A DNA stretch of 35,574 bases from Promicromonosporaceae bacterium (lineage in GTDB: Bacteria; Actinomycetota; Actinomycetes; Actinomycetales; Cellulomonadaceae), in the NCBI GenBank assembly GCA_009783295.1, contig WRHK01000040.1, positions 1-35,574 of the forward strand, written 5' to 3'. Position 1 is the stretch's first letter, and the number at the start of each line of letters is the position of its first letter. The notes beneath the pieces are model-generated. The model was not told the DNA's origin. It searched no databases and saw only the letters and a program-made list of their open reading frames with translations. The position numbers and the translations under genes are program-made. This document shows, one piece after another, positions 19,668 to 28,065 of this stretch.

Positions 19668-20579
19668 TCATCGCGGCAGGAACAACCCGACCACGGAGGG
19701 GTCCGCGAACACGGCGTTGCGGGCCACCAGGCCGTCGCGCACGGTGAGCACCTGCACCGAGTGGGGCTGCGGCCCGTCGGGCCCCGGTCGGAAGGCCATG
19801 AACGCCGGCTGCCCGTTCGCCTCGACCACGCGCGTGGTCCACTCCCGCCCGCGGTCGCGGAAGATCCGCTCCAGGAACAGCCCGTAGTCGCCGGTGCCGC
19901 GGTACCAGAGGTCGACGGGCGGCATCTCCATGACGACGTCGTCGGTCAGCAGCCGGACGATCGCCGGCACGTCGGCCGCCTCGAACGCGGCGACGTACCG
20001 CTCGACGGCGGCCCGGGCCTGCGGGTCGCCCGGCTCGGCGACGGCGGTCGTGTCGTCGTGGCCCGCGAGGGCAGCCCGGGCGCGCTGGAGCGCGCTGTTC
20101 ACGGCCGCGACGCTGGTGCCGAGCTGCTCGGCCACCTCGGCGGCGCTGAGGTCGAGCACGTCGCGCAGCACCAGGGCGGCGCGCTGCTTGGCCGGGAGCA
20201 GCTGGAGCGCGGCCACGAGGGCCAGCCGGACGTCGCCGCGCACGTCGGCGTCGTACCGGGCGTCGGGGAAGGGCTCGAGCCAGGGGATGTCGGGGGCGGG
20301 CACCAGGGGCGTCTCGGTGTCCGTGCTGGGGGCCCCGAGGCCCGAGGGCAGCGGACGGCGCGCCCTCTGCTGGAGCGCGGTGAGGCAGACGTTCGTGGCG
20401 ATCCGGTACAGCCACGTGCGCACGCTCGCGCGGGCCGGGTCGTAGTTGTCGCGAGCCCGCCAGGCGCGCAGCAGGGTGTCCTGCACCAGGTCCTCGGCGT
20501 CGTGGACGCTGCCCAGCATCCGGTAGCAGTACGCCACCAGCTCGCCGCGGTGCACCTCGAGGTCCAGGTCTACGCTCAT
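19668..20579 (-). CDS. ECF sigma factor with C-terminal SnoaL-like domain
   Basis: The 303-residue sigma factor has region 2 at about residues 8-75 (YCYRMLGSVHDAEDLVQDTLLRAW, then RTWLYRIATNVCL), a linker with PWLEPFPD, region 4 at about 118-172 (LPAKQRAALVLRDVLDLSAAEVAEQLG), and a SnoaL-type extension at about 185-303 containing NGQPAFMAFRPG. These match ECF41/ECF56-like sigmas, whose extension takes the place of a separate anti-sigma factor; no anti-sigma gene is adjacent. The ATG overlaps the recG TGA as ATGA (20576-20579), so expression is tied to recG translation. I found no ECF41-type promoter immediately upstream. The downstream reductase is a candidate target. Confidence 0.88.
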   Translation of the reverse strand: MSVDLDLEVHRGELVAYCYRMLGSVHDAEDLVQDTLLRAWRARDNYDPARASVRTWLYRIATNVCLTALQQRARRPLPSGLGAPSTDTETPLVPAPDIPWLEPFPDARYDADVRGDVRLALVAALQLLPAKQRAALVLRDVLDLSAAEVAEQLGTSVAAVNSALQRARAALAGHDDTTAVAEPGDPQARAAVERYVAAFEAADVPAIVRLLTDDVVMEMPPVDLWYRGTGDYGLFLERIFRDRGREWTTRVVEANGQPAFMAFRPGPDGPQPHSVQVLTVRDGLVARNAVFADPSVVGLFLPR

Positions 20580-25058: not shown

Positions 25059-25583
25059 ATGACGGTGGATCTCGACGGCGTGACCATCCGGGCGGCCACA
25101 CCCGACGACGCGCCGCGCATCGCGCAGGTGGACGTCACGTCGTGGCAGGGCGCCTATGCGGGACTGCTCCCTGACGACTATCTTGCGGAGCTCGACCCCC
25201 AGGTGCGCGCGCAGCGCTGGCTCTCGGCGCTGTCCCCCGGTGCGCGGAGCACCGTCCTGGTCGCGGAGCAGGGCGGCACGACGCTCGGCTTCGCCAGCTT
25301 CGGCCCCTCCTCGGACGAGGACGCGGACCCGGGCACCCATGAGCTCTACGCCATGTACCTGGTCCCGGGGGCGTGGGGCCGGGGCGTCGCCCGCGAGCTC
25401 ATGCGCACGGTGCTGCTGCAGGTTCCCGCCAGCGCCACCATGACCCTCTGGGTGCTCGACGGCAACGAGCGCGCCCAGCACTTCTACCGCCGCCACGGCT
25501 TCCACCCGGACGGCGTCGAGCGCATCGACGAGTTCGGCGGCACCCCGCTCACGGAGCTGCGGTACCGTCGCGCCGCCTCCTGA
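25059..25583 (+). CDS. GNAT family N-acetyltransferase
   Basis: The 174-residue product transfers an acetyl group from acetyl-CoA to an unknown amine. The fold runs from VTIRAATPDDAPRIAQVDVTSWQGAYAGLLP, typical of one GNAT subgroup, to MYLVPGAWGRGVARELM, the pyrophosphate-binding motif A (R/Q-x-x-G-x-G/A), then the C-terminal VLDGNERAQHFYRRHGFHPDG. ATG at 25059 is chosen for its leaderless promoter; ATG at 25035 would add eight residues. No ribosome binding site is obvious for either. The gene overlaps the convergent ECF42-type gene by 35 bp. Its substrate is not apparent. Confidence 0.82.
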   Translation: MTVDLDGVTIRAATPDDAPRIAQVDVTSWQGAYAGLLPDDYLAELDPQVRAQRWLSALSPGARSTVLVAEQGGTTLGFASFGPSSDEDADPGTHELYAMYLVPGAWGRGVARELMRTVLLQVPASATMTLWVLDGNERAQHFYRRHGFHPDGVERIDEFGGTPLTELRYRRAAS

Positions 25584-26763
25584 GCGCCTCGCGCTCGGCG
25601 TCGTTGCCGCACAGCGCGATCGCGGTGTCGAACTGGTCGCGCGCCAGGTCGGTCCGCCCGGCGCGGGCCAGCAGCTCGGCGCGCACCGCGGGCAGCCGGT
25701 GGCCGCGCAGCACCACGCCGTCGAGCGCGGCCAGGCCGGCCTCGGGCCCGTCGCGCTGGGCCACGGCCACGGCGCGGTTGAGCCGCACCACCGGTGAGTC
25801 GCCCAGCGCGAGCAGCTCGTCGTAGCGGGCCACGATGCGGTCCCAGGCCGTCGCGGCCGACGACGGCACCGTCGCGTGCTCGGCGGCGATCAGGGCCTGC
25901 AGCAGGTAGGGGGCGGGCGGCGCCCCGACCAGCGGGGACAGCACCTGCAGGGCCTCGCGGATCTCGTCGGCGTGCCACAGGGCGCGGTCCTGGTCGGGCA
26001 GCAGCACGAGCTCGCCGGCGCGCACGCGGGCGTCGCGGCGCGAGTGCTGGAGCAGCATGAGCGCGAGCAGCGCGTCGAGCTCGGCGTCGGGGGCGACGAG
26101 CCCGCGCAGCACCCGCACCAGGCGCACGGCCTCGCCGGCCAGCTCCGTGCGCACGACGTCGGGGCCCGAGCCCGGCGCGTACCCGGCGGTGAACGCGAGG
26201 TAGGCGACGTCGGCCACGCGCCCCACCCGGCCCGGCAGCTCGGCCGGCCCCGGAACCTCGAACCGCTCCCCCGCCAGGCGCTGCTTGGCGCGCGTGAGCC
26301 GGGCCGCCATCGTCGTGGTCTGCTGGAGGAACAGCCGCGCGACGTCCTCGGTGCTCACGCCCAGCACGAGCCGCAGCGTGAGCGCGGCCGCCGCCTCGCG
26401 CGAGAGCGCCGGGTGGGCGCACAGCAGCACGAGGCGCAGCCGCTCGTCGGTGACGGCCTCACCGGCGTCGGCCATGACGCGCTGGGCGTCCTCGGCGACG
26501 CGCGCGTCCACCTCCAGGAGCGGCGTGCGGCGCGCGAGCGTGGCCTCGCGCCGGCGGGCGTCGAGGATGCGTCGTCGCGCCGCCGTCAGCAGCCACGCGG
26601 GCCTGTTGTCGGGCACGCCCGTCTCGGGCCACGTGCGCGCCGCCGCCTCGAAGGCGTCCGCCAGCCCGTCCTCGGCGAGGTCCAGGCGGCGGAACTGCGC
26701 GACGAGCAGGGCCAGGAGGCGGCCCCAGTCGTCGCGCAGCGCGGCCTCGAGCGGTGTGGTCAC
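25549..26763 (-). CDS. ECF42-type sigma factor with long C-terminal extension
   Basis: The 404-residue product has sigma region 2 at about residues 15-75 (LAEDGLADAFEAAARTWPETGVPDNRPAWLLTAARRRILD), region 4 at about 108-165 (HPALSREAAAALTLRLVLGVSTEDVARLF) and a roughly 230-residue helical extension (about 175-404) of the TPR-like type seen in ECF42/SigJ-like factors, with a stretch around YLLQALIAAEHA. ECF42 factors are usually beside DGPF (YCII-type) genes and lack an anti-sigma factor; both are true here. GTG at 26763 overlaps the upstream YCII stop as GTGA, so the pair is translationally coupled. The two divergent promoters at 27153-27209 match the reported ECF42 motif. Confidence 0.9.
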   Translation of the reverse strand: MTTPLEAALRDDWGRLLALLVAQFRRLDLAEDGLADAFEAAARTWPETGVPDNRPAWLLTAARRRILDARRREATLARRTPLLEVDARVAEDAQRVMADAGEAVTDERLRLVLLCAHPALSREAAAALTLRLVLGVSTEDVARLFLQQTTTMAARLTRAKQRLAGERFEVPGPAELPGRVGRVADVAYLAFTAGYAPGSGPDVVRTELAGEAVRLVRVLRGLVAPDAELDALLALMLLQHSRRDARVRAGELVLLPDQDRALWHADEIREALQVLSPLVGAPPAPYLLQALIAAEHATVPSSAATAWDRIVARYDELLALGDSPVVRLNRAVAVAQRDGPEAGLAALDGVVLRGHRLPAVRAELLARAGRTDLARDQFDTAIALCGNDAEREALRRRRDGTAAP

Positions 26764-27113
26764 TGCTGGTCCGGGTCCCCTGTGCGCCGCACCTCGACGC
26801 CGGTCTCGACGTCGGCGATCGTGCGGGCGCAGTCGACCAGGTCGTCGACGTCGTCGGACTCGACGACGTAGAGGCCGGCGACCTGCTCGGCCGACTCGGC
26901 GAACGGCCCGTCGGTGACGACGACGCCGCCCGGCGTGCGGCGCAGCGAGCGTGCGGTGCTCGAGTGCTCGAGCGGGTATGTGAGCGTGATCGTGTGCCCG
27001 CGCTCGGCGAGCTTCTTGGCGAACACCGCGTGCGCGGCGAACAGCTCCGACATCTCGGCCGGGGTCTTGTGCTCCCAGGCTTCGCCCTTGATGAGGACGA
27101 CGTACGTGGTCAT
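26760..27113 (-). CDS. YCII-type DGPF protein (upstream of the ECF42 gene)
   Basis: The 117-residue product is a small YCII-superfamily alpha/beta barrel protein. It carries VTDGPFAES, the DGPF motif at about residues 68-71 that names the ECF42-associated proteins. Their biochemical role is not established; relatives bind or process small molecules. The ATG at 27113 has GGGAG eight bases upstream. Its TGA overlaps the sigma GTG. A matching promoter at 27153-27179 starts transcription about 33 bases before the ATG, and a second, divergent DGPF-type gene lies at 27249. Confidence 0.88.
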   Translation of the reverse strand: MTTYVVLIKGEAWEHKTPAEMSELFAAHAVFAKKLAERGHTITLTYPLEHSSTARSLRRTPGGVVVTDGPFAESAEQVAGLYVVESDDVDDLVDCARTIADVETGVEVRRTGDPDQQ

Positions 27114-27152
27114 GGTGTGCTCCCTCGTCGGTGGTGAGTCTTGCACCGGGGT

Positions 27153-27179
27153 GACGGGCGGCGGCGTCCCGGATCGACA
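27153..27179 (-). promoter_or_regulatory. ECF42-type promoter (TGTCGA-N17-CGTC) toward the sigma operon
   Basis: On the minus strand TGTCGA (27179-27174) and CGTC (27156-27153) are 17 bp apart, matching the -35/-10 motif reported for ECF42. The gap from the CGTC to the ATG at 27113 is 39 bp, the same as for the divergent promoter. It would make the sigma operon self-activating. Confidence 0.7.
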
Positions 27180-27182
27180 GCG

Positions 27183-27209
27183 TGTCGAAACCGGGCCAGC
27201 GTGTGCGTC
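27183..27209 (+). promoter_or_regulatory. ECF42-type promoter (TGTCGA-N17-CGTC) toward the second DGPF gene
   Basis: TGTCGA at 27183-27188 and CGTC at 27206-27209 are 17 bp apart on the plus strand. The gap to the ATG at 27249 is 39 bp, identical to the divergent promoter. The two -35 elements lie back to back (3 bp between them), so both directions could be driven by the same sigma factor. Confidence 0.7.
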
Positions 27210-27248
27210 ATCCAGGTGTCAAGCCCGACCGACCTCTCGGAGGACGTC

Positions 27249-27638
27249 ATGAAGTACGTCGTGCTCATCCACTCCAACCCCCAGCCGTGGGGCCACCCCA
27301 CGATCGACTTCACCGACGCGGGGCGTGCCGTGCCGCCCGAGCGCCGGGCCGCCGACGGCGCCGCGTTCGACGCGTTCCTGGCCGACCTGTCGGCGCGCGG
27401 CGAGCTCGTCGCGGCGGAGGCGCTGGCCGCCCCCGAGTCGGCGACGGTGCTGCGGGGCTCCCTCGACGGCGACCCGGTCGCGACCGACGGGCCGTACGCG
27501 GAGGCCGCCGAGCACCTCGCAGGGTTCTTCCTGGTCGACGTCGCGAGCCCCGAGCGCGCGCGCGAGGTGGCCGACCACTTCGCGGGGCCGGGTGACACGA
27601 TCGAGCTGCGGCCGGCGTACGTGTGGGCGCAGGGGTAG
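27249..27638 (+). CDS. YCII-type DGPY protein (divergent from the ECF42 operon)
   Basis: The 129-residue product is a second YCII-superfamily protein, related to the one at 26760 but distinct (VVLIHSNPQPWG start; VATDGPYAEAAEHLAGF contains DGPY near residues 80-83 instead of DGPF). The ATG at 27249 has GGAGG five bases upstream; earlier in-frame starts would run through the promoter. Its divergent placement and the matched promoter at 27183-27209 suggest the pair is a single ECF42 regulon. Biochemical function is unknown. A large inverted repeat follows the gene at 27677. Confidence 0.87.
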   Translation: MKYVVLIHSNPQPWGHPTIDFTDAGRAVPPERRAADGAAFDAFLADLSARGELVAAEALAAPESATVLRGSLDGDPVATDGPYAEAAEHLAGFFLVDVASPERAREVADHFAGPGDTIELRPAYVWAQG

Positions 27639-27676
27639 TCGCTTCCCTGTGTCCCACTCCGGCGCGCGCTCGCGCC

Positions 27677-27764
27677 GGGGAGGCATGCCCGCGTTCCGCT
27701 TCCACAGCACCAGGCTGTGATCACCACACCGTGCTGTGGAAACGGGACGCGGGCATGCCTCCCC
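27677..27764. repeat. 34-bp-arm imperfect inverted repeat
   Basis: Arms at 27677-27710 and 27731-27764 are complementary with two mismatches, around a 20-base loop that itself contains the palindrome GTGATCAC. Immediately left, CCGGCGCG-N4-CGCGCCGG (27659-27678) makes a second stem. It sits between the DGPY gene and DUF6191, which are on the same strand. It could be a terminator, a REP-like element or a MITE; no clear target-site duplication or transposase is seen. No second copy is in the window. Confidence 0.85.
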
Positions 27765-27824
27765 ACGGCCCCGAACGGCGCGGCGTCGCCGAGACGGCCT
27801 CTGGTCGACGCGAACGTCGCGCCC

Positions 27825-27830
27825 TACCCT
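27825..27830 (+). promoter_or_regulatory. Leaderless-type -10 box (TACCCT) for DUF6191
   Basis: TACCCT lies seven bases before the GTG at 27838, which supports that start. The inverted repeat at 27677-27764 ends 60 bases upstream. Confidence 0.45.
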
Positions 27831-27837
27831 CGAAAGC

Positions 27838-28065
27838 GTGGCCTCGCACAAGCGCTCGCACGACGACCGCCGGACCGGCACCGGCGGGTTCGCCGGCGCG
27901 CTCGGCGAGCTCATGGACGTGTTCCAGCCCAGCCGCGAGCACCTCGTGACCGAGCTCGAGCGCCAGCGCCACGACCTGCACCAGACGCCCAGCGGCGCGC
28001 CGGACTGGGACGTCGACCTGGAGAGCGGGCGCGTCGTCCTGCGGCGGCCCAGCGAGGACGGCTAG
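27838..28065 (+). CDS. DUF6191 family small protein
   Basis: The 75-residue product matches a small family common in Micrococcales and named DUF6191: LGELMDVFQPSREHLVTELERQRHD, then TPSGAPDWDVDLESGRVVLRR. It is charged, without a signal peptide or transmembrane helix, and its role is unknown. GTG at 27838 is leaderless-type. It shares its last bases (CTAG at 28062-28065) with the end of the convergent thiL, each using the tetramer as its stop. Confidence 0.7.
   Translation: MASHKRSHDDRRTGTGGFAGALGELMDVFQPSREHLVTELERQRHDLHQTPSGAPDWDVDLESGRVVLRRPSEDG

Follow-up and report, generated by a model that had tools for sequence, protein, structure and literature searches.

Predicted back-to-back ECF42-type promoters between two divergent YCII genes in a Promicromonosporaceae bacterium

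Results

Two YCII genes and a sigma factor gene flank the gap

The window, i.e. the whole stretch of 35,574 nucleotides analysed here, comes from a Promicromonosporaceae bacterium. It contains two divergent genes for YCII-domain proteins, one of them adjoined by a sigma factor gene, and a gap of 135 bp between the two. The features are as follows:

25549..26763, minus strand: ECF42-type sigma factor, 404 aa, with DUF6596 and a TPR-like C-terminal extension
26760..27113, minus strand: YCII-domain protein with DGPF signature, 117 aa (Pfam YCII 9.5e-12, translation)
27144..27146, minus strand: GTG starting 7 bases past CGTC, predicted transcription start (ATG/GTG there in 7/7 orthologs)
27153..27156, minus strand: −10 CGTC of the putative DGPF–sigma operon promoter, N17 from the −35 (identical in 7/7 orthologs)
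27174..27179, minus strand: −35 TGTCGA of the same promoter (identical in 7/7 orthologs)
27180..27182, no strand: GCG, the 3-bp gap separating the two −35 elements
27183..27188, plus strand: −35 TGTCGA of the putative DGPY promoter (identical in G004, another genome of the genus)
27206..27209, plus strand: −10 CGTC of the same promoter, N17 from the −35 (identical in G004)
27216..27218, plus strand: GTG starting 7 bases past CGTC, predicted transcription start (kept in G004, row L048)
27249..27638, plus strand: YCII-domain protein with DGPY signature, 129 aa (Pfam YCII 8.7e-11, translation)

The sigma factor scores slightly under the Pfam cut-offs for regions r2 and r4_2 (22.0 versus 24 and 23.7 versus 25.7 bits respectively) and under that of the NCBIfam sigma70-ECF model (30.5 versus 42.9). 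A profile of 14 relatives matches solved ECF sigma factors over positions 10–168 (best E 9.9e-10), and both regions 2 and 4, as expected of the ECF42 group, were found. DUF6596 is matched with 93.3 bits (Pfam). The AlphaFold model (mean pLDDT 86) has helices across residues 176–399, mostly with pLDDT > 80, and its top Foldseek matches are TPR proteins, all of them weak (none at E ≤ 0.001); on this basis the C-terminal extension is predicted to be TPR-rich and to span about 200 residues. An extension of this kind and length, together with a conserved YCII gene nearby, is described as a feature of ECF42 (PMC8999054), and the protein also agrees with the account of the group in PMC6180224. Here the YCII/DGPF gene adjoins the sigma gene, and a YCII match was present in 137 of the 139 loci of the spacer test described below. 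An earlier note on this DNA had taken both sites in the gap to be ECF42-type promoters, a reading that is supported here; DUF6596, the TPR-like extension and the YCII neighbour mark the sigma factor as ECF42-like.

The two neighbours of the sigma locus that were scanned with Pfam are GNAT and AIRS-domain proteins; a short ORF also lies at 27736–28065. A second ECF sigma gene (19671–20579, minus strand), presumably ECF41-like, encodes a SnoaL_2 extension and stands beside a recG-like gene. Following the DGPY gene is a 34-nt inverted repeat (27677–27764, 94% complementary). Related copies of it lie on three further contigs of the source genome, whereas a search of ten others of the genus gave no match at E ≤ 0.001.

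The gap carries the same motif in both directions

Both strands of the gap carry TGTCGA-N17-CGTC, which is the consensus of ECF42 target promoters, and the two hexamers form a perfect 6-bp palindrome with 3 bp at its centre (TCGACA-GCG-TGTCGA). The earlier note had described the two motifs, the back-to-back −35 elements and the equal distances from CGTC to ATG. A motif search confirmed the first exactly to the base, only GCG stands between the hexamers, and the coordinates agree on 39 bp for each arm (27210–27248 on the plus and 27152–27114 on the minus strand). A 2018 J. Bacteriol. study of ECF42 reportedly gave the boxes as TGTCGA and CGTC, with control focused on DGPF genes.

A lone match means little, as TGTCGA-N15..18-CGTC occurs four times in the window compared with a shuffle mean of 1.00. 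Across 200,000 dinucleotide shuffles of the gap, single N17 sites arose 475 times on the plus and 96 times on the minus strand, and the mirror pair never arose. A simple scan of 26950–27800 revealed neither a sigma-70 promoter nor an intrinsic terminator. We considered, and rejected, a designed symmetry behind the equal arms, because the distance is largely inherited: the arm of the minus operon measures 39–42 bp in all seven sigma orthologs, and that of the plus gene is also 39 bp in G004. Equal distances were seen in 7% of random promoter pairs from a 96-promoter set.

The boxes of both sites are conserved in relatives

From 220 family genomes we took the seven sigma orthologs that come closest outside the genus (68–75% identity; two of them, L250 and L251, with one TGA within the matched stretch). 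In all seven, promoter, DGPF gene and sigma gene follow in one direction, and the minus boxes are identical at 10/10 positions, with spacers matching at 6–11 of 17. The plus boxes are likewise identical (10/10; spacer 6/17) in G004, which holds the sole close DGPY ortholog. Judged by these sequence comparisons, both sites in the gap are almost certainly ECF42-type promoters.

More distant DGPY homologs (29 fetched, 53–66% identity) stand beside a 35–42%-identical sigma gene in 19 cases and have no sigma match in their stretch in nine, with L245 ambiguous. The motif precedes 16 of the 29, including six of the nine without a sigma match, and these six look like targets in trans.

Among ten other genomes of the genus, only G004 has both a close sigma (83%) and a close DGPY protein (85%). 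There, the two genes are divergent, DGPF is absent between them and the plus promoter is the only one; on the minus strand of the G004 gap, no match with spacer 17 exceeds 7/10 box bases. The mirror is therefore not conserved even within the genus. Family-wide, an exact mirror was found in two of 221 genomes, i.e. the window and G108, and the fetched 3 kb around the latter gave no YCII or sigma match. In the simplest history, a second ECF42 target gene would have come to adjoin an older DGPF–sigma operon, giving the present layout, and G004 would then have lost DGPF together with the minus promoter.

An ATG or GTG marks the predicted start site

We surveyed 137 loci: 130 from the family, six from the genus and the window itself. 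The family loci were drawn from the best DUF6596 matches listed, with some listed places left out; among the matches listed, DUF6596 is found in at least 113 of 150 family genomes. Dropping second tandem YCII copies and regions shorter than 200 bp left 146 YCII upstream regions. Among the matches listed, 97 of these contain TGTC-NN-N17-CG-N-C (compared with 3 for the reversed control and 10 for the opposite strand), 26 contain the strict TGTCGA-N17-CGTC (0 and 2 respectively) and 49 contain neither; the commonest relaxed forms are TGTCGA with CGAC (51) and TGTCGA with CGTC (26). A spacer test, in which the window locus is present twice (via L213), placed 28 of 31 N17 matches upstream of YCII genes, compared with 3/12 for N13, 2/20 for N15, 2/14 for N16, 1/10 for N18 and 1/10 for N19, again among the matches listed; exceptions in this list are N14 (8/8) and N20 (3/3). 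The N14 matches are eight near-identical sequences; inspection by eye places CGAC at a distance of 18 bp from TGTCGA in them.

The survey also contained several two-way arrangements. Relaxed matches on both strands at L131 and L144 each come from one promoter that reads in either direction, and L171 has a pair with a 3-bp gap whose plus member is TGTCGC-N17-CGAC. The CGAC-type ECF42 promoters of L287 (1789–1816; TGTCGAT...ATCGACA) and L221 (1438–1465) are near-palindromic, so that their boxes read as a promoter either way. At L248 (1390–1459), a DGPY homolog and a divergent gene, DinB-like by eye, share a CGAC-type mirror pair with a 16-bp gap.

When promoters repeating an identical stretch were dropped, 80 family promoters remained, window included, and in 64 of them (among the matches listed) the −10 box is followed, at an offset of exactly 7 bases, by ATG or GTG. 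Both window promoters have GTG at this position, and we infer that the purine of this triplet would be the transcription start. Each window GTG is in frame with the ATG of its gene, and the frame is open. Among the matches listed, only 29 of the 64 promoters have their +7 triplet in the reading frame of the gene, and the frame from the +7 GTG of G004 meets a stop after 7 codons; the triplet thus seems to signal the site where transcription begins and not the start of a protein. Leaderless translation from a GTG at +1 is doubtful on the same two counts.

The source genome encodes three ECF42-type sigma factors

A genome-wide search, which the earlier note had asked for, returned 61 matches with N16 or N17 in the 3.98-Mb source genome. 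Sites with N17 and CGWC number 12 (10 CGTC, 2 CGAC), compared with 6 in a backwards control. As these counts are weak alone, the case rests on position, orthologs and the GTG at +7. Only three of the 12 exact TGTCGA-N17-CGWC sites have an RTG at +7: the two in the gap and C8:39212–39238, a TGTCGA-N17-CGTC site with GTG that precedes another YCII–ECF42 sigma operon. The nine remaining sites have no RTG; seven overlap a coding-like frame, and L218 and L219 are not clearly placed.

ECF42-type sigma factors are encoded at three places in this genome: in the window, at C8 and at C13, where the operon promoter reads, by eye, TGTCAA-N17-CGAC-N6-GTG. The identical promoter and GTG of the C8 operon make cross-talk possible in both directions; as predicted from sequence, the sigma factor most likely to use the gap promoters is the local one (25549–26763).

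Mirror pairs recur near YCII genes in other genomes

Among ∼85,000 genomes, exact mirror pairs with gaps of 0–30 bp were found in 30 stretches. Seventeen of these lie near YCII genes, and for 15 of the 17 the fetched stretch includes an ECF42-like sigma as well, which marks the mirror as a recurrent variant of a known unit. The gap is a rare layout of the known ECF42–YCII control unit that recurs elsewhere. The 17 loci belong to Actinomycetota and Pseudomonadota, plus one Gemmatimonadaceae bin; because some are closely related (four Pseudonocardia, two Actinomycetospora, two Streptomyces), they represent fewer than 17 independent origins. Their hexamers are 3 to 30 bp apart. Opposite genes were scanned in 13 of the 17 (L059, L071 and L074 were left out), and none of the scanned loci showed a second YCII gene in this position. 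Eleven of the 13 gave a Pfam match (MFS, glyoxalase, MDMPI_N/DinB, AHSA1, RibD_C, DUF998 or DUF6069); the opposite genes of L054 and L067 gave none, that of L067 being cut by a contig end.

Three further loci (L058, L073 and L079), grouped by judgement, have ECF42-like gene types in the pairs MatE + DUF1428, S51 + glyoxalase, and AHSA1 + MatE; an ECF42-like sigma is present in the genomes of L058 and L079, and none was found in that of L073. The ten remaining pairs showed no ECF42 context. An RTG at +7 accompanies 16 of 34 half-sites in the 17 YCII loci (leaving 18 without), 1 of 6 in the three ECF42-like loci and 0 of 20 in the ten others. Two divergent YCII genes with an ECF42-like sigma close by were also found in a Luteimonas record (G583:C1:62638–64883; L274, L278, L288); just one side there has an exact N17 promoter, so that this layout has no mirror.

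Discussion

We conclude with good confidence that the gap holds two ECF42-type promoters placed back to back, as predicted from their motifs and conservation, one directed leftwards to DGPF–sigma and one rightwards to DGPY. RNA polymerase carrying an ECF42-type sigma, most probably the 25549–26763 product, would transcribe DGPF and the sigma gene on the left, which would amount to positive feedback on the latter; the same holoenzyme would read rightwards into the second YCII gene. Transcripts would be expected to start at ∼27146 on the minus and ∼27216 on the plus strand, a separation of 70 bp. The sigma factor may be restrained via its own TPR-like extension instead of an anti-sigma factor, as has been described for ECF42.

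The earlier note had seen here a self-activating, closed unit lacking an anti-sigma factor. The minus promoter predicted ahead of the operon speaks for self-activation, and a precedent in another species speaks against it: in S. meliloti, overexpression of the ECF42 sigma RpoE10 failed to raise its own YCII–rpoE10 operon (PMC6180224), which calls for caution in assuming the loop. An apparent lack of an anti-sigma gene would be the normal state of ECF42 sigmas (PMC6180224) and thus not distinctive of this locus. The idea of a closed unit is unsupported in a genome with three ECF42-type sigmas, one of whose other operons (C8) has the same promoter.

A shared regulon, in which both sites are ECF42-type promoters driven mainly by the C8 or C13 sigma and the locus is not self-contained, would fit this count of sigma factors, the TGTCGA-N17-CGTC and +7 GTG of the C8 operon, and the motif at six of nine DGPY homologs without a sigma match. 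However, the TGTCAA-N17-CGAC of the C13 operon indicates that at least this sigma differs, and promoter, DGPF and sigma stay together in 7/7 orthologs; we regard main control by C8 or C13 as rather unlikely. It is less probable still that one site is an active promoter and the other a relic or chance match. Single sites did turn up in the gap shuffles (475 plus, 96 minus, of 200,000) and G004 retains the plus site only, yet each side is conserved separately while the spacers drift, and each has its GTG at +7. That TCGACA-GCG-TGTCGA is instead the operator of a dimeric repressor is suggested by the perfect 6-bp palindrome around 3 bp, but we reject this reading as very improbable: TGTCGA-N17-CGTC is kept in 7/7 orthologs, six of which have no divergent TGTC-NN-N15..19-CG-N-C in the 200 bases upstream (L254 has a loose one), throughout the family (among the matches listed) CGWC accompanies the hexamer at a spacing of 17 bp, and the hexamer gap of YCII mirror loci varies between 3 and 30 bp. 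A chance arrangement in G+C-rich DNA, as 10 of the 30 mirror pairs (those with no visible ECF42 context) appear to be, is scarcely credible for a pair that arose in 0 of 200,000 shuffles and is conserved on both sides, each with its +7 GTG.

Taking the gap, then, as two ECF42-type promoters, little room is left for two polymerases: the usual footprint of the enzyme, including upstream contacts, is large relative to a 70-bp spacing of starts. With the −35 boxes abutting as well, competition of two polymerases at the 3-bp gap is likely. The stronger proposal, that the gap acts as a single-occupancy two-way switch at which polymerase takes one direction at a time, is conceivable and we offer it tentatively.

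The locus resembles described ECF42–DGPF/YCII units, e.g. Sven_0747, Sven_4377 and Sven_7131 of S. venezuelae and ECF-10 of P. putida, in its TPR-extended sigma and YCII neighbour (PMC8999054), and differs from those units, as far as the consulted portion describes them, in its back-to-back promoters and the second, divergent YCII gene. In S. meliloti, three promoters of RpoE10 genes read TGTCGG-N17-CGTC by our count of the spacers (PMC6180224, Table 1), the spacer length being that of both window promoters, and the motif of the YCII–rpoE10 operon overlaps the start site. As in the window, this operon is accompanied by a further target, the SMc01149–SMc01148 operon, adjacent by gene number; the RpoE10 targets in the sections available have ligand-binding and glyoxalase-like domains, and none is described there as a second YCII gene (PMC6180224). 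Those parts of the literature on ECF42, DGPF/YCII–sigma units and divergent or bidirectional promoters that were accessible, the main ECF42 papers not among them, describe no mirror ECF42 promoters. A close counterpart is L081 of Microbacterium salsuginis, an exact mirror near a YCII gene with the same 3-bp gap, in which the opposite gene is the sigma gene itself and not a second YCII gene. The 16 other YCII mirror loci share the exact mirror with the window, and their opposite genes differ where Pfam matched them.

ECF42 is a large sigma group for which, to our knowledge, neither the signal nor the function of the YCII targets is known. The ECF42 promoter model gains precision from the ATG/GTG at +7, which in the source genome sets three YCII-upstream sites apart from nine others. 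The mirror loci also name genes seemingly co-controlled with YCII, such as those for MFS transporters, glyoxalases, MDMPI_N/DinB and AHSA1 proteins. The mirror promoter itself offers a clean two-reporter system for self-activation and for competition between back-to-back ECF promoters. If the switch proved true, each start toward sigma and DGPF would cost one toward DGPY; amplification and output would then be in a fixed split, of which the gaps of 3–30 bp may represent natural settings.
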